A stretch of DNA of 64,000 bases from Williamsia maris (GTDB taxonomy: Bacteria > Actinomycetota > Actinomycetes > Mycobacteriales > Mycobacteriaceae). The notes under the pieces are model-generated. The model ran no database searches and was not told the origin of the DNA. It saw only the letters and a program-made list of their open reading frames with translations. Shown here piece by piece: positions 52,973 to 62,368 of the stretch; within the stretch, counting starts at the first letter, position 1, and every line of letters starts with the position of its first letter. Location of the stretch: contig NZ_JAMTCJ010000003.1 in assembly GCF_024171815.1 (NCBI RefSeq), positions 62,001-126,000 on the forward strand, written 5' to 3'. Made by a program: the position numbers and the translations under genes.

Positions 52973-53416
52973 TCAGCTCGTGGGAGCCGGCTCGAGCACG
53001 AAGACCGGGATCTCCCGGTCGGTCTTCTCCTGGTAGTCGGCGTAGGGCGGGTACGCCTCGACGGCGCGATCCCACCAGGTCTGCTTCTCGCCGCCGAAGA
53101 CCTCACGGGCGACGAAATCGTTCACATCGGTGCCGTCTCGCAGCTCCACACGCGGGTTGGCGGCGATGTTGAAGTACCAGACCGGGTGCTTCGGGGCACC
53201 GCCGAGCGACGCGACGACCGCGTAATGGCCCTCGTGCTCGACCCGCATCAGCGGGGTCTTGCGCAGCTTGCCGGACTTGTTGCCGATGGTGGTCAGCACC
53301 ACGACGGGCATCCCCTGCATGTCGGTGCCCTCGGTGCCACCCGACTGTTCGATCTTCTCGGCCTGTTCCCGGGCCCAGTCGCTGGTGCTCGGTGCGTATT
53401 CGCCCTCTAGTGGCAT
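52973..53416 (-). CDS. Ddn-like F420-dependent reductase family protein
   Basis: 147 aa. The split-barrel pattern of deazaflavin (F420)-dependent nitroreductases is clear: [38 protein letters not shown], then [18 protein letters not shown]. Family members (Rv1558, Ddn) reduce quinones and nitro compounds with F420H2 at or near the membrane. The gene neighbours ilvA as in M. tuberculosis. The natural substrate is unknown. Confidence 0.9.
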
Positions 53417-53476
53417 GTTCTACGTTTCCTTTCGGTCGTGAGTACGGGTCTCCGAACTTATGGCTGCGGAGTGCCC

Positions 53477-53482
53477 TATACT
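53477..53482 (+). promoter_or_regulatory. Candidate -10 for the small membrane-protein gene
   Basis: TATACT is a near-consensus -10, about 60 nt before the ATG at 53545. The region 17 bp upstream (GAACTT) is a weak -35. Confidence 0.45.
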
Positions 53483-53544
53483 GGAGTTCACCGACCAGGA
53501 TCTCTGACTATCCCGCCCGATGTACCGCACGAATCGAGTCTGAC

Positions 53545-53784
53545 ATGACGACGCTCACCGCGACCACGGTCTCGCCGCGCGAGGCCCGTACGCCCGCCCC
53601 GACCGTCGAGATCGCCGGCGTCGACTGGCCGCTGTACAAGCTGCAAGCCGTTGCGTTCGGGCTGGTCGTCGCACTGCTGGTCGGCATCGTCACCGAATCG
53701 GCCGAGTGGACCGCGTGGACGCTCACCATCGCCACCGCGGCCGTGTGGTGGCTGCGCCGGGCCGCACACCGCCGACTGCGCTAG
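53545..53784 (+). CDS. Small membrane protein, unknown function
   Basis: 79 aa with two hydrophobic segments (about residues 35-50 and 54-68) and a basic C-terminus RRAAHRRLR. The plan is that of small actinobacterial integral membrane proteins; no family is recognised. It has its own TATACT promoter and converges with the operon downstream, ending with a 4-bp overlap of stop codons. Confidence 0.6.
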   Translation: MTTLTATTVSPREARTPAPTVEIAGVDWPLYKLQAVAFGLVVALLVGIVTESAEWTAWTLTIATAAVWWLRRAAHRRLR

Positions 53785-54641
53785 CTGCCGGTCTCGAAGA
53801 ACCCCACGACCAACTCGCCGGCCTCGTCGATCGGCGTCGTGCCCACCGGCGGCGGTGCAGCGGCCCGCCCGGAGAGAATCTCGCGCGCGAAGGCGGGGCG
53901 GGCGTCTGTCAGCCATGCGAGCACGCGTCCGCTCGACGCGTGCAGCACCGCCGACGATGTCCCCGTGTGTGCAGCCACCGCCCGGAGTGCGACGCGCGGG
54001 AGCAACTCGTCGTCCGCCTCGGCCAGTGTCTCGGGTAGTCGCACCGAGACACCGAGGACACACGGCCCGTCGAAGGTGGCCACGACCCGCATCGCGTAGC
54101 GCTCGACGGTGCCGTCCGTACGGATCCAGTCGCCACCGAACCGATCGCCGATCCCGGCGCCGTGGACGTCGACCACGGTGCGGCGGATGTCGGACAGACG
54201 AGCGCATCCCGAGAGCCAGTCGGTCATGGTGCGGTTCTGCGGGTCGTCGACGAACTGCGGTGAGATCGGGTCGGCGAGTTCCCATGCGAACGCCCACACC
54301 GGCGGTTCGGGCGGCGGCGTCTCGGTGGCATCGCCGATCCACATGAGGATGGCGTGCACCTGACGCGACGGCCCCAGGACTGGATGTGCCAGGGCCAATC
54401 GCGGGCCCCCGACGTCGAGGAGTACCTGCGACTGCTTCAGATTGTTGAGGACGGTGTCGAGCAACTGCAGGACGGTCGTGTACACCGAACCGCGGAACAT
54501 GTTGGAAACCGGACGCCACTGCTTCGAGCGGGGTCCGACCATCACCACCGAGGGCGTCGACCCCGAGGTCTCGACCAGGAACCAGCCTTCGCCCACGTCG
54601 CCTCCGTCATCCCCGCCACGGACACTGCCGTCGGGCGCCAC
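53781..54641 (-). CDS. Possible Rv3651-like (DUF5593) sensor protein, last gene of the afsA operon
   Basis: 286 aa from a GTG at 54641; in-frame GTGs nearer WFLVETSG are also possible starts. The start WFLVETSGSTPSVVMVG and later VWAFAWELADP remind me of Rv3651-type proteins, which carry PAS/GAF-like sensory domains; I am not certain. No DNA-binding or enzymatic motif is visible. It begins 7 nt after the stop of the monooxygenase, so it should be part of the same transcript. If it senses a small ligand, the product of this operon would be an obvious candidate. Confidence 0.55.
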   Translation of the reverse strand: MAPDGSVRGGDDGGDVGEGWFLVETSGSTPSVVMVGPRSKQWRPVSNMFRGSVYTTVLQLLDTVLNNLKQSQVLLDVGGPRLALAHPVLGPSRQVHAILMWIGDATETPPPEPPVWAFAWELADPISPQFVDDPQNRTMTDWLSGCARLSDIRRTVVDVHGAGIGDRFGGDWIRTDGTVERYAMRVVATFDGPCVLGVSVRLPETLAEADDELLPRVALRAVAAHTGTSSAVLHASSGRVLAWLTDARPAFAREILSGRAAAPPPVGTTPIDEAGELVVGFFETGS

Positions 54642-54647
54642 ACGTTA

Positions 54648-56135
54648 TCAGCGACTCAACGGGCAGCGCAGTCCCCAATGCCCGTCGAGGACCTTCACCA
54701 TCTGAGCCACATCGGATCCCGCACCCGACCACGCGACGTAGCCATCCGGCCGCAGGACGACGATCTCCGGGTACGACTCCGGCAGCCCCTCGGCGACGAC
54801 CACGTCGGCGAACGGCACCTCGGTCGTCGCCGCGATGCGATCACTCGCCGGCGCGTCGGCCAGCACCACGATGCGCCCAGGGGCCAGCAACGCCGACACC
54901 GTCGTGCGGGTGCCGTCGGCGACGAACTCGTGGTCCGGGAGGAACTCGCCGTCGAGCTCGCCGACCGACGAACCGGCCGACTCGTACCGCAACGAGTGCC
55001 CGTTGATCTTGTCACCGAGCCAGTCGTGGGTGTCGTTGTTGCACAGCATCTGCGAGACCATCCGGCGCATCGGGTCCTGCGAGGCATCGGGATTCATGAT
55101 CGACGACTGGAGGCGGGTGTTGTCGATGACCCACTGCCCCACGGGTTGACGTTCCGCGGAATACGTGTCGAGCAATGAGTCGTCGGCGGCACCGGTCACC
55201 ACCGCGGCCAACTTCCATCCCAGGTTCACCGCGTCGGAGATGCCGGTGTTGAGTCCCTGTCCGCCGAGTGGGTAGTGGATGTGCGCGGCGTCGCCGGCCA
55301 GGAACAGTCGCCCGTCGCGATAGTCGTGCACGATCCGGCTGAAGTCGCTGAACCTGTTGAGGTAGTGCGGCGACTCGAGTTCGACGTGCGACCCGACCAC
55401 GCGGTCGATCGCGGAGCCGAACTCCTCCGGCGTGACCGGCGCATGTCGGTCGACGACGGGACCGTCGAACTCGAACACGATGATCCGGCTGTCGCCGTAC
55501 CGGTTCAGGTTGAGCAACGTCCATCCCGCGTCGGTGTGGTTCCAGCCGCCACGCAGATGTTCGGGGTGCGGCAGCTGCGCGAGGCCGAGGATCGCGCGCA
55601 TCGTCGGCGCGTACTCGGTCGTGTCGAACTGTCCCGACCGCAGCACCGCGCTGCGGCCGCCGTCGGCACCGACGACGTAGCGCGCAGAGTAACGTTGCTC
55701 GCTACCGGCGGCGTCATGGCCGATCACCGTGGCGTGGTCGGCTGACTGCTGCACCGAGGCGACCGTGATCCCCCGGATCACCCGTGCCCCATGCGATGTG
55801 GCCTTGACTGCGATCGCGCGCTCGAGGTCGGCCTGGGCGATGCCCATCATGACCGGCCCGTCGATGGTGCGCGATCGCAGGGTGAGCCACGGATAGCCCG
55901 CGAACTGGAACAGCTCCGAGGAGATCGCCGTGTGATCGTTGGTGCGGCGGGGTACGGCGACGACCTGTCGGCGGGCCAGTGTCGCGATGGCCCGCGCGTG
56001 ATAGGTACCCGCCTTCGGGTACTCGCTCACAGCGTCCCGGCTCTCCAACACCACCGCCGAGATATCGTGCAGCGCCAGCTCGTTGGCGACCAACATCCCC
56101 ACCGGTCCACCGCCGACCACGATCACGTCGTACAT
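54648..56135 (-). CDS. FAD-dependent monooxygenase (PHBH-fold hydroxylase)
   Basis: 495-aa class A flavoprotein monooxygenase. The FAD motif is VVGGGPVGMLVANELAL (6-22), the second is YVVGADGGRSAVL and the third is FLAGDAAHIHYPLGGQGLN, followed by GISDAVNLGWKLA. The C-terminal thioredoxin-like domain of the phenol/TetX-like branch follows. Such enzymes hydroxylate aromatic or polyketide substrates with NAD(P)H and oxygen. The ATG is directly next to the P450 stop. In this operon it could oxidise the butyrolactone or its acyl chain, though a Baeyer-Villiger-like reaction is also possible. Confidence 0.9.
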   Translation of the reverse strand: MYDVIVVGGGPVGMLVANELALHDISAVVLESRDAVSEYPKAGTYHARAIATLARRQVVAVPRRTNDHTAISSELFQFAGYPWLTLRSRTIDGPVMMGIAQADLERAIAVKATSHGARVIRGITVASVQQSADHATVIGHDAAGSEQRYSARYVVGADGGRSAVLRSGQFDTTEYAPTMRAILGLAQLPHPEHLRGGWNHTDAGWTLLNLNRYGDSRIIVFEFDGPVVDRHAPVTPEEFGSAIDRVVGSHVELESPHYLNRFSDFSRIVHDYRDGRLFLAGDAAHIHYPLGGQGLNTGISDAVNLGWKLAAVVTGAADDSLLDTYSAERQPVGQWVIDNTRLQSSIMNPDASQDPMRRMVSQMLCNNDTHDWLGDKINGHSLRYESAGSSVGELDGEFLPDHEFVADGTRTTVSALLAPGRIVVLADAPASDRIAATTEVPFADVVVAEGLPESYPEIVVLRPDGYVAWSGAGSDVAQMVKVLDGHWGLRCPLSR

Positions 56136-57374
56136 CTACACGATCCTCCTCGCACCGAGATCCACCGGCAGTGCGGCCGGTCGCCGCAATCCCGTCCCCA
56201 GATCCCATTCGACATCCGACGGAGCCACACGCAGCGCAAGATCGGGATAGCGCGTCACGACTCGGGTGAGGATCGCGATCAGCTCGGTCTGCGCGAGCGC
56301 CGACCCCATGCAGCGGTGCATTCCGTAGCCGTACTGCAGGTGCCGCCCGCGCGGGCGATCCAGCCGGATCTCCAGCGGCGCATCGAACACGGCCGGATCG
56401 CGGTTGGCTGCGTTGATGTGGGGGTAGACGATCGCACCCGCAGGCAGCGTCCCCGCCGACGTGTGGAGGGGACGGGTCAGTTCCCGGGGAAATGACCCCG
56501 GCGTGCCGAGCGGCATCAACCGCATGATCTCCTCCACCAGGTCCGGCACGAGTGCCGGATCATCGACCACCTGTGCATAGAGATCACGATGTGCCAGTGC
56601 GGCATACAGCGTCTTGACCAACATCGTCGCGACGTTGTTGTCGCCTCCCAGGACGATACCCATCACCGTCCCGCTGATCAGGGTGTCGTCGACGGCGGCG
56701 AACTCCGGCTGCCGCGCCCGGCGCTTGTAGGTCGCGAGCAACCCGCTGTCGTCGTGGTCGGAGTCGTCGGCGACGAGGTGCTGCACCCAGCCGTAGAGCT
56801 CGATCCACGAGTCGACGATGAGCGGGATCTCGTCGCGCCGGGCCAGCTGGATCCGCCGACCGAGCTCGTTCATCCACGGCGCGTGATCGCGTGAGATACC
56901 GAGCAGCGTGCACACGACCTGCGCCGGCACCAGCCGGAAGACCTCGGTCATGATGTCGGGTTCGGCGGCGGTGTCGAGTGCGTCGAACGCGGCGTCGGCC
57001 AGTGTGCGGATGGTCGGTTCGAGTCCGGCCATCGACCGCGCGGAGAACTCGTGCGACACGAATTCCCGCACCACGCCGTGCACGGGAGCATCGAGGTTGA
57101 TGAGCACCTCCGGCGCCCAGTTCGTGGGCATGAACGACGGTCCCCCGTCGACATTGCACAGGGCTCGACTGGCCGTGCGGTCGAGCATCAGCGTCTTGAC
57201 GTCGACATGAGAGGTCAGGCAGATCGCCGTGTGCCCACTGGGCAGTTCGATGTGCTGGTGTCCGTCGTCGCTCGGCAGCTCGCGGACGTAGGGATGCGGG
57301 GTGTCGAGTCTCGGGATGTCGACGACCAGCGGGGTCGAGGAAACCGCACCGGGGCGGTGAATGGTCTCGGTCAT
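56136..57374 (-). CDS. Cytochrome P450 with altered I-helix
   Basis: 412 aa from the ATG at 57374, which overlaps the exporter stop by 4 nt. The heme cysteine is C355 in YGYGMHRCMGSALAQ, and the EXXR is EIMR (282-285). The I-helix segment reads VLGGDNNVATM (241-251). By comparison with P450cam (GGLDT), the acid-alcohol pair is replaced by two asparagines (246-247), so oxygen activation may differ, or the enzyme may rely on a substrate hydroxyl, as in P450eryF. No ferredoxin or reductase gene is adjacent. In Streptomyces butenolide clusters a P450 oxidises the side chain of the signal. Confidence 0.93.
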   Translation of the reverse strand: MTETIHRPGAVSSTPLVVDIPRLDTPHPYVRELPSDDGHQHIELPSGHTAICLTSHVDVKTLMLDRTASRALCNVDGGPSFMPTNWAPEVLINLDAPVHGVVREFVSHEFSARSMAGLEPTIRTLADAAFDALDTAAEPDIMTEVFRLVPAQVVCTLLGISRDHAPWMNELGRRIQLARRDEIPLIVDSWIELYGWVQHLVADDSDHDDSGLLATYKRRARQPEFAAVDDTLISGTVMGIVLGGDNNVATMLVKTLYAALAHRDLYAQVVDDPALVPDLVEEIMRLMPLGTPGSFPRELTRPLHTSAGTLPAGAIVYPHINAANRDPAVFDAPLEIRLDRPRGRHLQYGYGMHRCMGSALAQTELIAILTRVVTRYPDLALRVAPSDVEWDLGTGLRRPAALPVDLGARRIV

Positions 57375-58963
57375 TGTCGGATCTCCTCGTGATCGAAGGC
57401 GAGAGCAGCGTCGACGCCAGGGGCGTCGTCGACGGGAAGGGCTGCGGGAGCGGCCACGGGCCGACGCAGCAGGAGCGATACCAGCACTGTCAGGACCACT
57501 CCCAGGGCGGCGAGCACCCAGAGCAACGGCGTGAACCCGTCGGCGAAGGCGGCACGCAGCAGGCCGGTGTCGACGGTGCGGTCGACACCGCCGATCTCGC
57601 CGGTGACCACCTTGTCGACGATGCCCTCGCGGGTACCGGCCCCCAGGGAGTCGGGCAGTCGATCCCGGACCTCGCCACCGACGCCTGCGGTCAGCGCGCT
57701 GGCGAACACCGCGACCACGAGTGCCTCGCTGCCGAGGCGGACCGTCGACACCAGTCCGGACACCATGCCCGAGCGCTCCGGGGCGACCGAGCCGATCGCC
57801 TGGCCGTCCACCAACCCGACACCGAGCCCGAAGCCGAGCCCGAGCAGCAGGAACGGCGCCACGATGATGCCGATGTTCTCCTCGGTCCCGACCAGGGTGA
57901 GGCCGGCCGCTCCGGCCACGAAGAGCAGGACGCTGCCGCCGAGGATCACCCACACCGGCACGCCCCGGGTGTGCAACGCTCCGGCGATCAGCGGGCCGAC
58001 AATGACCGGGACGGTCATGATCAGCATCAGCAGGCCGACGACACCGGTCCCCAACTCCCACACCGTCGACAGGAAGGTCGGGTAGTAGGTGAGCAGGGTG
58101 ACGAAACCGACCGCGCCGGCGACAGGCACGGCGAGCAGACCGACCAGTCGCGCGGAGCGCAGCAGGCTCAGGTCGAGCAGCGGGTGATCGGTGGTCAGTT
58201 CGATGCGGATGAATGCGCCGAACACCGCCACGCCCGCGACGAGCATCCCGAGCGTGGCCGGTGAATCCCACCCCCACGAATCCGATTGCACGACAGCGGC
58301 TATGACCAGCGTCAGGGACGCGGCAAAGGCCACTGCGCCGGGGTAGTCCAGACGACCGCCGGTCTGTGCGGGGGTGTCGTGCACGTTGGAGGCGATGACC
58401 AGTGCCGCCGACACCGCGATGACGACTGCGTTGAACCAGAAGATGCCCGACCACCCGACGAGGGCGATGGCCGTCGACGAGATGGTGGGGCCGAGGCCGA
58501 GTCCCACTCCGGCCGCGGTACCGAACAACGCGAAGGCCCGCGCCGCGGCGGCACCGGAGAAGGTGATGGCCAACAAGGCGCCCGAGCACGCGAATATGAT
58601 CGCGGCGCCGACTCCGGCGAGTGCACGACCGATGTCGAGCAGGATCAGCGAGGGTGCGAGCGCGCTGAGAACCGCCGCTCCGGCGAACAGCGCGCCGCCG
58701 AGGACGAGACCGCGGCGCCGACCGAGATGATCGGCAATCGATCCGGCCACCAGGCTGAACACCGCGAAGGTGAGGTTGAACCCGTTGACCACCCACTGCA
58801 GCAACGACGGTGTCGATCCGAGATCGGCGGCGATGTGTGGCAGTGCCACACCGGTTCCCGACACACCGGTCGGCACGACGACCACACCGAGGAGGATCGC
58901 AGCCAGCAGGAGGTTGGGTCTGGCGGGCGATGTGGCCCGTACGGATGGGGCGGGTGCGGTCAT
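57371..58963 (-). CDS. MFS exporter, DHA2 (14-segment) type
   Basis: 530 aa, 14 hydrophobic segments. Motif A is GSIADHLGRRRGL after segment 2 and the motif C region is near GTAAGVGLGLGPTISS. DHA2 proteins export drugs, dyes and secondary metabolites by proton antiport. It overlaps the HAD gene and the P450 gene by 4 nt on either side, so it is firmly within the operon; it probably exports the operon's product. Confidence 0.92.
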   Translation of the reverse strand: MTAPAPSVRATSPARPNLLLAAILLGVVVVPTGVSGTGVALPHIAADLGSTPSLLQWVVNGFNLTFAVFSLVAGSIADHLGRRRGLVLGGALFAGAAVLSALAPSLILLDIGRALAGVGAAIIFACSGALLAITFSGAAAARAFALFGTAAGVGLGLGPTISSTAIALVGWSGIFWFNAVVIAVSAALVIASNVHDTPAQTGGRLDYPGAVAFAASLTLVIAAVVQSDSWGWDSPATLGMLVAGVAVFGAFIRIELTTDHPLLDLSLLRSARLVGLLAVPVAGAVGFVTLLTYYPTFLSTVWELGTGVVGLLMLIMTVPVIVGPLIAGALHTRGVPVWVILGGSVLLFVAGAAGLTLVGTEENIGIIVAPFLLLGLGFGLGVGLVDGQAIGSVAPERSGMVSGLVSTVRLGSEALVVAVFASALTAGVGGEVRDRLPDSLGAGTREGIVDKVVTGEIGGVDRTVDTGLLRAAFADGFTPLLWVLAALGVVLTVLVSLLLRRPVAAPAALPVDDAPGVDAALAFDHEEIRQ

Positions 58964-59709
58964 GCGATGGTCTCCCTGTCTGTGGTGATCGCTGCTGCGA
59001 TGGCGTCGTCCGCGGCGGCCCCGTCCTGGGCACGCAGGAGCGCGGCCAGGTCGGCGAGGGTCTGGTCGTTGTCGACGAAACGCACCGCTCCCCAGCCGGC
59101 TCTGCGTGCGGCGGCACAGTTGGATTCGAGATCGTCGACGAGGATCGCGGTACCCGGTGCGGCACCGATCCGGTTCTCGGAGATCGCGAAGATCTCCGGT
59201 TCGGGTTTGCGGCAACCGACGTCGTAGGAGTCGACGATCGCGTCGACGTCCTCGTCGAGGCCCACCATCGGGCGCCAGTGAGCTTCCCACTCACGCACGT
59301 TGTTGGTGAGGATGCCCACCCGGTAGCCCCGCGCCTTCAGCTCGAAGACGAGTCGGCGCATGGTCGCGTTGACCTGATGGCCCGCGAACCACTGACGGCC
59401 GAAATCGAGGTCCGACCGCGACACGTCGACACCTCGGCAGGTGAGCCACCGGTGCATCCGACGGACCCACTCGACCTCGGTCAGGAGGCCGAGTTCGACG
59501 GGGGCGAGCACATCGACGCCCAAACCGTCGGCGACGCCGGCCATCGCGGCCTTGAGATCGGCCGGGGCGATGCCGGTCACGCGCTCGTACTCGAGGAACA
59601 GGTCCTCGATCGGCGGTGAGAGCACGCCGCCGAAGTCGAGGAACACCGTCGTGTACCGCGTCGCCTCGGTCACCGGAGGGACGGAGTCGATGCGCACCGA
59701 GGCCGTCAT
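58960..59709 (-). CDS. HAD-superfamily phosphatase-like protein
   Basis: 249 aa from the ATG at 59709 overlapping the afsA-like stop. HAD motif I is VFLDFGGVLSPP (nucleophile D25; the second Asp of the usual DXD is Gly), motif II ILTNN, motif III lysine in CRKPEPEIF and motif IV LVDDLESN. This is the epoxide-hydrolase/YihX-like branch. In A-factor-type biosynthesis a phosphate from dihydroxyacetone phosphate has to be removed, and a HAD-like phosphatase gene accompanies afsA homologues in some Streptomyces. That role is inferred from place. Confidence 0.88.
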   Translation of the reverse strand: MTASVRIDSVPPVTEATRYTTVFLDFGGVLSPPIEDLFLEYERVTGIAPADLKAAMAGVADGLGVDVLAPVELGLLTEVEWVRRMHRWLTCRGVDVSRSDLDFGRQWFAGHQVNATMRRLVFELKARGYRVGILTNNVREWEAHWRPMVGLDEDVDAIVDSYDVGCRKPEPEIFAISENRIGAAPGTAILVDDLESNCAAARRAGWGAVRFVDNDQTLADLAALLRAQDGAAADDAIAAAITTDRETIA

Positions 59710-60731
59710 CGCTGGACCGTCGCGTGTGCTCGGGCGTGCGATCGGGCGAAGACCACTCCGCACGACGCGATGGTCACGCCTTCCTGCGTGATGTCGACGT
59801 CGAAGCCGACCACCTGATCGCAGGTGTCGGTCTGCGGCCGGACCAGCGCGCTGGTCGGCAGGTCGAGTTCACCGAAACGCGTGAATGTCGCCGACAGCGA
59901 ACGGATCCGGAGACGCCGTGCGCTGAGACCGAAATACTCGTCGGCGCCGACGATCCCCGCCTGGCGAACCGCCTCGAAGATCACCGCGCCCGGGATGTGG
60001 TCGAGCGGGTGATCGAACAGACTCGGGTGATGCTGGTCGACGAGGACGTCGATGTCGAACCCGGCGGGGACGTGCCGCGCCGCGCCGACCACCACGTTGC
60101 GGCTCAGACCACGGCCCAGCGCCTCGGGCTGGTGGGCACCGACACTGCGGTGCGGATGCCTGCCGGGCAACGGTTCGATGCCCGGTCGGTATTCCGCCAG
60201 TCCCAGTTTCGCGCGCCCGGATGCCCGGATCCGCGCCCAGATCGGCTTCGGCATCCACTGGATCGACATCGTCATGGTCACCGCCGCCACACCGGCGAGT
60301 GTCACCGTCATGTCGAGCGTGATCCCGATGATCGTCTCGTCGCGCACCTTCTCACCGACGATCACCGCACTGAGCTCCCCGGTACCCGGTACCGAGGCCA
60401 CCGTCATCGCGTCGTCGGAGACCACGCTGATCGCACCGGCGTTGAAGATGAAGGACTGATCGAACTCGACCCCGACGTGCCGGTGCGCGATGAGAATCGA
60501 TGCCTGCCGGAAGCACTCGAGGACGAGCAGCGGGTCGTACCGCCCCGCGGCCGGCCCCACATGATCGCTGTAGTAGCTATGCGACTTCGGGAAGTGCACG
60601 CCCACACGGAAGTTGGGGTAGCGATCGCAGATGATGTCGGTGAGGTAGACCTCCGACAGTGCGTCGCGGTGGACGTGCTCACGCGGCACGAGGGTCGAAT
60701 GGGAGAGACGAGGTTGCAGAGTGGATGTCAC
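59706..60731 (-). CDS. AfsA/ScbA-family gamma-butyrolactone biosynthesis protein
   Basis: 341 aa from the GTG at 60731, which has AAGGGG 7 nt upstream; an ATG at 60773 has none. Two hot-dog AfsA repeats are visible, each with a Glu-Arg pair in corresponding positions: LLVLECFRQASIL (E72, R75) and VIFEAVRQAG (E253, R256). The opening LVPREHVHRDALSEVYLTD and FPKSHSYYSDH are typical. AfsA proteins couple a beta-ketoacyl-ACP to dihydroxyacetone phosphate, the committed step to butyrolactone or butenolide autoregulators. It is the first gene of the operon. No ArpA/ScbR-type TetR receptor gene is within the window. The family is clear; the product is not. Confidence 0.9.
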   Translation of the reverse strand: MTSTLQPRLSHSTLVPREHVHRDALSEVYLTDIICDRYPNFRVGVHFPKSHSYYSDHVGPAAGRYDPLLVLECFRQASILIAHRHVGVEFDQSFIFNAGAISVVSDDAMTVASVPGTGELSAVIVGEKVRDETIIGITLDMTVTLAGVAAVTMTMSIQWMPKPIWARIRASGRAKLGLAEYRPGIEPLPGRHPHRSVGAHQPEALGRGLSRNVVVGAARHVPAGFDIDVLVDQHHPSLFDHPLDHIPGAVIFEAVRQAGIVGADEYFGLSARRLRIRSLSATFTRFGELDLPTSALVRPQTDTCDQVVGFDVDITQEGVTIASCGVVFARSHARAHATVQR

Positions 60732-61102
60732 CGGTTGGCCCCTTGCTGAGAGTTCGGACGGCAGCACGGTCATGTGATGTCGCTGCGCGACTCCGGGCAG
60801 CGTTCACGTGTGCAGGTCGTGTCGAGCGGTCCGCCGGGTCTCGGGCTTGTCAGCAAGGGGCTCTCAAGCGACTCTGTGCGGATGGTGGAGAGGTTAGCGC
60901 GTGCAAGGAGTTTTGTCGCGCCCAAGAATCACCCGTGCACGAAAGTCGCCGCAAGCGAGCCCGTGGGCGATTGCGCTGTGTGCCAGCGTGTTCGGAATTG
61001 AATGGAGACCACCCCGCGATGACGGGGGTCACGTTCGGTGCGTCATGTGATCTGTGTTTCATTACGTCAGCGCTCCGCGGGCCCGCCCCTCATAGTGATC
61101 CG
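60732..61102. other. 371-nt divergent intergenic region between afsA-like and MFS genes
   Basis: It must hold the promoters for the afsA operon (minus) and for the second MFS gene (plus). No strong -10/-35 pair stands out; TAACCT (minus, near 60897-60892) is the best -10 I see. A 12-bp inverted repeat is at 60738-60749 and 60850-60861, and CGTGCACG is at 60942-60949. I see no convincing match to the published consensus of Streptomyces autoregulatory elements. No supported gene lies within it. Confidence 0.5.
60738..60861. repeat. 12-bp inverted repeat flanking the afsA start region
   Basis: GCCCCTTGCTGA (60738-60749) and TCAGCAAGGGGC (60850-60861) are exact reverse complements 100 nt apart. 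The first includes the ribosome binding site of the afsA-like gene (AAGGGG on the minus strand). They could bring together two operator halves or, in a long leader, hide the ribosome binding site. Confidence 0.6.
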
Positions 61103-62368
61103 ATGGGACAGGACCGGCGACGGATCGCCGTCATCGCGGCGGGGATGGCGGTGGAGGGGTACGACTGGGTCACCTTTCTCGCGCTGCTCCCCTACATGAC
61201 CCGAGCGCTGGTGAACGACGACGGATCCGGACTCACCGTGGGCTTCGCGATCTTCGCGGCCGGGTTCGTGTCCCGGCCGTTCGGGGCCCTCGCGCTCGGA
61301 CGACTGGCCGATCGACGGGGCCGCACTCCGGCGTTCGTCACCTCGTTGTGGATCGGGGTCGGTGCGACGACCGGCATGGCCATCACCCCCGACGTCGACG
61401 GCGCCGCGTGGGCAGCGCCGTCGCTACTCTTGATCTTCCGGGTGGTCCTGGGCGCGGCACACGGTGGCCAGGCGGCCGTGGTCAATGCGCAGACGTACGA
61501 GATGCACAGGCCTGGTTCACGACTCGACCCGTCAGCGCTCATCTACGCGATGGCCGCCTGCGGGAAGGTGGCGTCGCTGACGGTCACACTCGCATTGATC
61601 GCCGGCCTCGGTCGCGCGGAGATGACCGGGTGGGGATGGCGGATCCCCTACGTCGTCGGGGCGGTGGCGGGTGTGGCGCTAGCACTCGCCGCGGCGCGCG
61701 GTGTCGACCGCGATCGATCGTCCCGTGTCGATACCGCCCCGATCCTGCGACGATCGGTGGTGCTGACGCGGATGGCGGCGGTCGTCGCGCTCACCCTCGG
61801 CACCACCCTGACCTACAACATCTGGATTGCGGGCACCGTGCCGTACGCGGTCGCTCACCTCGGGGTCAGCGAATCGACCATGGTCTCGACATCTCTCGCG
61901 CAGACGCTCTGCTTCGCAGCGCTGGTGGTCTGCGTCGGGCGGTCGATGCGGCACCGATCCCGCACCCGCCTCCACGTCGTCTTCGCCCTCGCCAACGTCG
62001 CCGTCTGCCCGGCAGTGCTGTTCTTGACGCGACCGACGACCACCCTGGTGAGCTACCTGGTGGGGACGACACTGGCGACGGTTGTGCTGGCCGGCCTCTG
62101 CGCGACGTTGCCCGCGGTGATCAGCGCCCTGTTCCCCCGCGCGATCCGCGGTGCGGGCAACGGTCTGCCCTACGCGGTGGCCGTCGCCCTCGTCGGAGGA
62201 ACGGCGCCGGGACTCCGGGAGGCGCTGTCGGCCGATTACGCGGTGTTCGCGCTCTACGCCGCGACGGCGTGTCTGATCACCGCAGTGACCGCGATCATGA
62301 TCGGCCGTCGGTCGAAGCGGGCCCACGACCCGGCGACCCACCCCGTACCGGCGCCCGCTACCCGCTGA
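61103..62368 (+). CDS. MFS transporter (metabolite:proton symporter-like)
   Basis: 421 aa from the ATG at 61103; the frame is open upstream but without conserved sequence. About 12 hydrophobic segments, with motif [14 protein letters not shown] between segments 2 and 3 and an [17 protein letters not shown] first segment typical of MHS-type importers of organic acids and of related efflux proteins. The substrate is unknown. It is divergent from the afsA operon and could be linked to it. Its end overlaps dnaE1 by 11 bp on the other strand. Confidence 0.85.

Follow-up and report, generated by a model that had tools for sequence, protein, structure and literature searches.

A conserved AfsA-led oxidising and exporting gene cassette in Williamsia and other actinobacteria, with a candidate folded leader ahead of afsA in one branch

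The SRB butenolides of Streptomyces rochei come from one locus that holds the AfsA enzyme SrrX, the phosphatase SrrP and the cytochrome P450 SrrO, the last of which oxidises the SRB side chain to give the C-6' ketone (PMC7564063, PMC12301235; cited, like the other papers here, for the sections consulted). In another described route, an AfsA enzyme, a phosphatase and a flavin monooxygenase make 2-alkyl-4-hydroxymethylfuran-3-carboxylic acids (AHFCAs) of the methylenomycin type (MmfL-MmfP-MmfH and AhfaL-P-H; PMC7037778). Closest by genus to the locus described here is a precedent from Rhodococcus jostii RHA1, for which a butyrolactone-like compound, 6-dehydro SCB2, has been described together with its gene gblA (PMC5735094). 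We analysed a 64,000-nucleotide stretch of Williamsia maris DNA (contig NZ_JAMTCJ010000003.1, positions 62,001 to 126,000; hereafter the window), whose minus strand carries a six-gene operon headed by an afsA-like gene (53781-60731). A first-pass annotation had suggested that this operon could make a diffusible signal outside Streptomyces, of a kind not known in Gordonia-type bacteria; the compound from strain RHA1 runs counter to the latter statement. The reading that we lean towards is that the operon belongs to one branch (class A) of a conserved cassette that makes and exports an AfsA-built, oxidised small molecule, with translation of afsA probably set by a folded leader. With its genes for oxidation and export, the cassette represents a new branch of AfsA-based biosynthesis.

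The six genes, all present on the minus strand, are as follows.
59706..60731, minus strand: afsA-like gene of the butenolide/butyrolactone synthase family, GTG start (Pfam AfsA, PF03756, 8.9e-40, matching in two stretches that represent two hot-dog domains)
58960..59709, minus strand: HAD-IA phosphatase (Pfam HAD hydrolase, 5e-16; NCBIfam)
57371..58963, minus strand: DHA2-type MFS exporter (MFS_1, 3e-36; EmrB/TcmA-like models below their cut-offs)
56136..57374, minus strand: cytochrome P450 (Pfam p450, 2e-13)
54648..56135, minus strand: class A FAD monooxygenase (FMO) with a ring-hydroxylase C-terminal domain (FAD_binding_3, 5e-67; Rng_hyd_C, 3e-10)
53781..54596, minus strand: Rv3651-like protein, a possible sensor (PF18007, Rv3651-like_N, 8e-23; alternative start GTG 54641)

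Open reading frame and Pfam analysis thus recovered the six genes as first described, with an AfsA-family enzyme in front and an HAD phosphatase and a P450 alongside. The tight spacing claimed for them was found at four junctions, three being 4-nucleotide overlaps (AfsA/HAD, 59706-59709; HAD/MFS, 58960-58963; MFS/P450, 57371-57374) and one a direct abutment of the P450 and FMO genes (56136/56135). The gap before the last gene is in single digits (6 nucleotides) only from GTG 54641, and is probably about 51 nucleotides, since the start at GTG 54596 is favoured by homologues of the last protein, which begin near a WFLV(E/D)T block. The sequence AAGGGG lies seven bases before the GTG start of afsA; a longer form starting at ATG 60773 received no support from homologues. 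Nine further loci show the complete six-gene order at protein identities of 36-98%, although afsA is interrupted in one of the nine, and this recurrence confirms that the operon is real and far beyond chance.

To survey the wider distribution of these genes, we took 401 genomes from the family and found an AfsA relative in 108. The loci compared (L034-L195, n = 162) comprised 80 stretches around family AfsA relatives (mostly the better-scoring ones), 80 named collection loci and two plasmid loci, and 138 with a distinct AfsA were retained. Neighbours were counted at AfsA loci with at least 6.5 kb of flank on each side, namely 43 of the operon's own AfsA subfamily and 80 others. The own-subfamily AfsAs were accompanied by the HAD protein in 41 cases, the MFS exporter in 39, the P450 in 38, the FMO in 38, an ArsR-type protein in 30 and the Rv3651-like protein in 14, as judged by similarity cut-offs that were taken from the window proteins and a few neighbours and could miss very divergent partners. 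All four enzyme and exporter partners adjoined 38 of the 43 (L044, L123, L124, L134 and L138 being incomplete) versus none of the 80 others, and they did so in at least three gene orders; the set of AfsA, HAD, P450, FMO and MFS genes is therefore a conserved actinobacterial cassette. The 80 other loci had HAD in 8, FMO in 15, MFS in 10, ScbR in 14, gblE in 13 and ArsR in one. The last is L062, whose AfsA is truncated and adjoined by MFS and ArsR genes with operators; it was counted as non-cassette.

Four classes were distinguished by gene order. In class A (our label), all genes are collinear with the Rv3651-like gene last, as found in Williamsia, Rhodococcus sp. KRD197, Gordonia, Corynebacterium and Nocardia. 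Class B (Rhodococcus and Nocardia) has AfsA-HAD-P450 opposed to FMO-MFS, plus ArsR and Rv3651-like genes, while class C (Nocardia, Rhodococcus, Gordonia and Williamsia deligens) has AfsA-HAD, a reversed FMO, MFS-P450 and ArsR. Class S covers several gene orders in Streptomyces, Kitasatospora, Glycomyces and one contig-end Actinoplanes locus. The set is thus conserved in Rhodococcus, Gordonia, Nocardia and Corynebacterium, bearing out the gene-order check proposed at first pass, whereas its placement outside Streptomyces failed, with complete five-enzyme sets in 12 Streptomyces/Kitasatospora loci. Two individual afsA genes deserve mention. In Gordonia polyisoprenivorans NBRC 16320 (L045 3683-16796, G343:C89; also L122 and L137), the class A afsA is split by an insertion of about 12 kb that carries what we take, by eye, to be arsenate-reductase-like genes; the rest of the cassette is kept, and the two afsA halves (L137 and L045) fell on either side of the score line. 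The class C afsA of W. deligens (L052 9700-10697 / L156) reads in two frames and may be broken or contain a sequencing error.

A tree was built from 98 hand-picked AfsA rows of 160 by a quick method, with no bootstrap and with long-branch warnings. In this tree, 48 cassette AfsA rows lay on one side of a branch with a Shimodaira-Hasegawa-like approximate likelihood ratio test (SH-aLRT) value of 99, and 12 receptor-linked rows lay on one side of another branch (SH-aLRT 99). The cassette AfsAs, as judged from this tree, are one clade, apart from the receptor-linked butyrolactone AfsAs. The assignment to the AfsA clade made at first pass held for family membership by profile; within the family, the protein was placed apart from the receptor-linked AfsAs in a tree drawn without SrrX, BarX and ScbA. 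It gave a full-length match to the ScbA/BarX equivalog NF041195 at 179.9 bits, below the 200-bit cut-off. Across 40 complete cassettes, the distances between partner proteins tracked those between AfsAs (r = 0.92 for HAD, 0.84 for P450, 0.93 for FMO and 0.93 for MFS; reached in 0 of 2000 permutations); the cassette genes travel and evolve together. One Streptomyces locus (L133) looks mosaic, with 50% identity to the Williamsia P450 and 48% to the MFS protein versus 36% to AfsA.

The gblA-gblR-gblE system of Rhodococcus shares with the operon an AfsA-family enzyme in a related genus. It differs in having a TetR receptor and an epimerase beside gblA (PMC5735094) and an AfsA of the other clade, and the 14 ScbR-linked loci with flanks all lack a cassette-type HAD, P450 or FMO gene in their vicinity. 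Surveys of Rhodococcus and Nocardia count butyrolactone clusters (PMC5550956, PMC7413640), and the sections of them consulted do not describe the cassette or its leader. In the open PMC literature, we found no paper linking AfsA with an HAD protein or phosphatase, a P450 and an FAD monooxygenase, or with ArsR, a P450 and a butenolide.

Some AfsA loci with other arrangements were also seen. An AfsA-HAD-flavin monooxygenase arrangement occurs at L185, L186, L189 and L193 (Nocardiopsis, Streptomyces echinoruber and Glycomyces fuscus); the AfsAs of L185, L189 and L193 lie outside the cassette clade, and these loci may be furan-type clusters. Plasmid pFiD188 of Rhodococcus fascians D188 carries, at 53347-59315 (L200 5348-11316), an AfsA-HAD-MFS-FAD monooxygenase-aldo/keto reductase operon near arginine-type biosynthesis genes. 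L088 and L089 have neighbours similar to those of the pFiD188 locus, and their AfsAs are likewise outside the cassette clade.

The Williamsia operon is an accessory insertion in its 4.93-Mb host genome (G000), because the corresponding junction is empty in five sister genomes. Of eight Williamsia genomes examined, G000 and G003 alone hold the operon; two more (G001 and G005) contain AfsAs of other types, and no match was obtained in the remaining four. A gene that we take, by eye, to be nitroreductase-like is separated from a presumed dnaE by 410-470 bp in G001, G002, G004, G006 and G007; the operon and a divergent MFS gene stand between these two genes in G000 and G003, and the region is cut by a contig end in G005. 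The name of another flanking gene, ilvA, was likewise assigned by eye and is presumptive. The insertion carries the following further gene.
61103..62368, plus strand: divergent MFS transporter, with distant relatives near some class A cassettes

At two Corynebacterium loci, the operon has 50% G+C versus 64-65% in the flanks, as expected for lateral transfer; eight other loci were unremarkable in this respect.

We next consider what the enzymes would make. AfsA would join a beta-ketoacyl thioester to dihydroxyacetone phosphate, and the HAD enzyme would remove the phosphate; without a reductase in the operon, the ring would stay a butenolide or become a furan. The FMO and the P450 would oxidise the ring or the side chain, and the DHA2 transporter would export the product, which is most likely an oxidised butenolide or furan because the operon has no reductase. 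Both published enzyme sets, AfsA with phosphatase and P450 and AfsA with phosphatase and flavin monooxygenase, are present in the operon, as matched by family only. The first likens the operon to the SRB locus, which differs in having the dehydrogenase SrrG, the thioesterase SrrH and the repressors SrrA/SrrB, with no flavin monooxygenase or exporter named in the sections consulted (PMC7564063, PMC12301235). The second likens it to the AHFCA genes, which have a TetR pair adjoining them and, in the sections consulted, no P450 named, whereas the operon here has a P450 and no ScbR-family neighbour. Counting against a furan, the FMO has 495 amino acids with Rng_hyd_C versus 384 amino acids for the published AhfaH (PMC7037778), and the furan is therefore one option only.

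In AfsA, residues E86/R89/Q90 and E267/R270/Q271 (counted from ATG 60773) show at least 85% conservation among the rows of the cassette, gbl and other groups alike, and we take them to match ScbA E78, E240 and R243. All 40 complete cassettes retain the HAD residues D25, K168 and D192-D193; at its second motif position the HAD protein has G27 rather than Asp, presumably as in the phosphatase YihX. The P450 has an intact heme ligand (Cys355) and ExxR motif (Glu282, Arg285), while the acid-alcohol pair (E-T) of the I helix, in an alignment to solved P450s, is replaced by [Q/N/H]246-N247, the second residue being N in 39 and S in one of the 40 cassettes (residues 239-249, window 56628-56660). This conserved loss may point to a non-standard oxidation. 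The GxGxxG, DG and GDAAH motif residues of the FMO are kept in at least 92% over the 40 cassettes, and the PDB entry closest to it in sequence is 4k5r (listed as an oxygenase), with hydroxylases and a Baeyer-Villiger enzyme also among the matches.

Regulation seems to differ by branch, with an ArsR protein and operator elsewhere and a structured leader in class A. A small ArsR-type protein adjoins 30 of the 34 non-class-A cassettes with flanks and no class A cassette; HTH_20/HTH_5 domains were found in the three examples scanned, over the cut-off in two. With 11 of 14 positions matching, an inverted repeat, AGGTWCG-N8-CGWACCT, was present in 35 of 40 non-class-A loci (29 loci at 12 of 14), placed no more than 250 bp ahead of an AfsA, MFS, FMO or ArsR gene, the exceptions being L044 (partners lost), L123, L124, L134 (no ArsR) and L145 (contig end). 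Near the same genes, it was found in none of the 10 class A loci and one of 86 non-cassette loci (of 88, L045 and L062 being set aside by hand), and in block-shuffled sequence in 3 of 40 at 11 of 14 positions and none at 12 of 14. Because the pattern was first spotted in class S leaders, the afsA sites of class S do not count as independent evidence, which comes from the sites ahead of MFS and ArsR genes and from classes B and C. A search for a hidden cassette-type ArsR copy elsewhere in the host genome gave at best 31 bits (39% over 64 amino acids), and this candidate was rejected. The ArsR repressor and its operator thus appear to do in the other branches what the leader would do in class A.

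The arrangement of these sites bears on a plausible, though tentatively held, alternative, namely that the product is an antibiotic-like or self-toxic metabolite and that ArsR and the exporter (with the FMO) form a self-protection module induced by it. The exporter and FMO genes run divergently from afsA in most class S loci and in the class B loci of Rhodococcus; paired operators lie between them, and the ArsR gene adjoins the exporter, as such a module would have it; the cassettes are accessory and move between genera, and methylenomycin is an antibiotic of a butenolide synthase finished by a flavin monooxygenase (PMC12593393). Class A cassettes, however, have no ArsR module, and ArsR adjoins afsA instead of the exporter in Nocardia class B loci.

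A somewhat unlikely alternative is a diffusible hormone of the butyrolactone kind, exported, accumulating and sensed by the producer through the Rv3651-like protein or the leader RNA, not TetR. Its AfsA ancestry, the exporter in the operon and the known AfsA products that include hormones (PMC5735094, PMC7564063) speak for it, as does the dedicated Rv3651-like gene in 14 of 43 cassettes, all of classes A and B. No such gene was seen next to cassettes of classes C and S, and its product has no Pfam match, and no output domain, beyond the N-terminal PF18007 (81.4 bits versus a cut-off of 25; the only PF18007 match in the genome). The only PDB match is 4q6u, of the Mycobacterium tuberculosis Rv3651 family, which has the same N-terminal domain; the protein here is shorter and operon-borne.

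The receptor evidence also weighs against such a hormone. No ScbR-family match of at least 100 bits lies within 8.5 kb of any of the 43 cassettes, and no ScbR-type receptor in the host genome exceeds the 150-bit cut-off (best 61 bits with the family model), in agreement with the earlier remark that no TetR receptor lies in the window, which holds for the surroundings of the window and, by the ScbR-family model, genome-wide. The model gave matches over its cut-off in four positive controls with a gbl cluster (G194, G251, G134 and G016). No match at E ≤ 1e-25 was found in the class A hosts G003, G174, G355 and G370, so that five of the seven class A genomes tested lack the receptor that a hormone-receptor reading needs; in the other two, matches were over the cut-off (G303) or below it (G340). 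There was none in the class C host G001, and those in G144, G029 and G070 lay on non-cassette contigs. Ordinary GblR-type control was ruled out by the lack of an ScbR-family neighbour or over-cut-off genome match. A GblE-type homologue adjoins none of the 43 cassettes, and a BprA reductase was not searched for. Overall, we regard a signal and an antibiotic-like compound as about equally likely products. Annotations, those of plasmids among them, commonly give AfsA genes the name of butyrolactone hormone genes; since a large, distinct clade of AfsAs goes with a constant set of oxidising and exporting genes and with no hormone receptor, such names may often indicate another product.

The leader proposed to control afsA in class A has the following parts.
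60827..60878, minus strand: conserved leader RNA core (class A leader alignment; model R1; no Rfam match)
60845..60869, minus strand: leader stem P1, 60869-60865 with 60849-60845 (86% of cells paired; two pairs changed on both sides)
60854..60862, minus strand: anti-Shine-Dalgarno strand, pairing with 60737-60745 (found by RNAalifold unprompted)
60737..60745, minus strand: sequestered Shine-Dalgarno (SD) region, with AAGGGG at 60739-60744 (pairing and covariation)

Alignment of the class A afsA leaders showed a block of about 50 nucleotides, AGAGTCGCT...AGCCCCTTGCT..CAAGCCCRAG, conserved between genera, while the stretch from this block to the start codon is not. The leader sequence CCCCUUG is complementary to the SD sequence CAAGGGG, and hairpin P1 frames the anti-SD strand, which in the folded leader would hide the ribosome site and so set afsA translation. 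All single-sequence folds of five leaders formed the SD stem, three being clearly more stable than shuffles (z -2.6, -2.9 and -2.8), and RNAalifold recovered the stem without its being given, with one both-sided change only. In the Williamsia leader, the SD duplex extends to 12 pairs and is stronger than in any of 300 shuffles (z -4.1), and values elsewhere were -4.2 in G003, -3.3 in KRD197, -2.5 in C. oculi and -2.3 in both G370 and G174. Over ten sequences, three SD-stem pairs changed on both sides. The joint pseudoknot, counted without the tenth SD pair, had 91.4% of cells paired and covariation as high in one of 500 shuffles, and sliding the partner strand lowered every measure.

With R1, a sequence model of the core, each of nine class A genomes had a single strong match (E 4e-7 to 7e-14), positioned ahead of afsA; the model had been built from these sequences, and 150 candidates were scored per genome. 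Nothing else scored better than E 0.15 in these genomes and six other Williamsia genomes. Over 79 loci, all five matches were at class A loci. Genome searches with R1 gave a match in 2 of the 59 genomes from Gordonia and 3 of the 242 from Corynebacterium (stricter filters in both), and in 1 of 28 from the genus of G174. An independent check came from Corynebacterium G487, outside the model, in which the leader precedes a short afsA-like remnant with MFS, FMO and Rv3651-like genes (HAD and P450 were not found in this remnant), and the SD pairing is retained with other bases.

Several observations weigh against the folded leader. Two of the five leaders are not clearly more stable than shuffles (z -0.9 and -1.2), and the duplex is weak or absent in three of nine (G. 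polyisoprenivorans, -1.7; G355, -0.4; N. australiensis, +2.2). Among 46 other gene starts in the window, the best duplex reached z -3.1 and four were at -2.3 or lower, so that all controls are exceeded only by the Williamsia leader and those of G003 and KRD197 (-3.3 to -4.2). One both-sided SD-stem change rests on a poorly aligned Nocardia row, and the joint count excludes the tenth pair, which fails to form in 7 of 10 rows. The covariation comes from ten sequences, two pairs of them near-identical, in an alignment with the variable middle removed, and the controls do not remove relatedness.

Other origins of the block were also considered. Rfam gave no match at E ≤ 10 in window 60650-61150, which set aside a known RNA family, and only two matches, far below the gathering score (E 0.42 and 0.5), at five element-bearing loci. 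Gaps of 1, 2, 3 and 5 columns between genera ruled out a coding origin. An alternative anti-anti-SD hairpin fits 87.5% of cells and was dropped, showing no covariation. A search for sigma-70-like promoters gave one match versus 0.7 expected, and one for terminators gave none. That the block is a conserved DNA site, promoter or operator, complementary to the SD sequence by chance is unlikely: the sample of ten sequences, the mixed duplex statistics and the lack of covariation in the alternative hairpin favour it, whereas the compensatory changes in both stems, the single shuffle in 500 that equalled the joint structure, the RNAalifold stem, the pairing kept in the G487 remnant and the absence of any inverted repeat of at least 10 nucleotides within 60 nucleotides in 60700-61110 oppose it.

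The folded leader, in turn, would act as a cis-regulatory RNA, possibly a riboswitch. In preQ1-type translational riboswitches, a pseudoknot hides the Shine-Dalgarno sequence. The leader here likewise has a conserved hairpin with a loop able to pair with the SD sequence, and it differs in having no Rfam match and roughly 75-135 nucleotides between the two SD-stem strands. The most specific form of this idea, which we consider improbable, is a new class of translational riboswitch, in which an H-type pseudoknot would mask the ribosome site of afsA and the leader would sense the butenolide-like product of the cassette itself or a precursor; if true, an RNA receptor replaces both the TetR hormone receptor of Streptomyces and the ArsR protein of sister cassettes. 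In this lineage, control seems to have passed from ArsR to a structured leader. Such an exchange of the ArsR repressor and operator for an RNA inside a single cassette family would offer a clean and testable example of one regulator replacing another, and it makes the ligand of the leader RNA a directly answerable question.

Finally, the surroundings of the cassettes varied. No gblE gene follows the cassette in any of the surveyed cassette loci, and a KAS III-like gene does so in two Streptomyces loci only (L153 15508 and L157 15731). A flanking ABC transporter is seen at Nocardia-type loci and is not common to the other classes, and a terpene synthase gene lies near the cassette of Nocardia otitidiscaviarum (L116 2737-4032).

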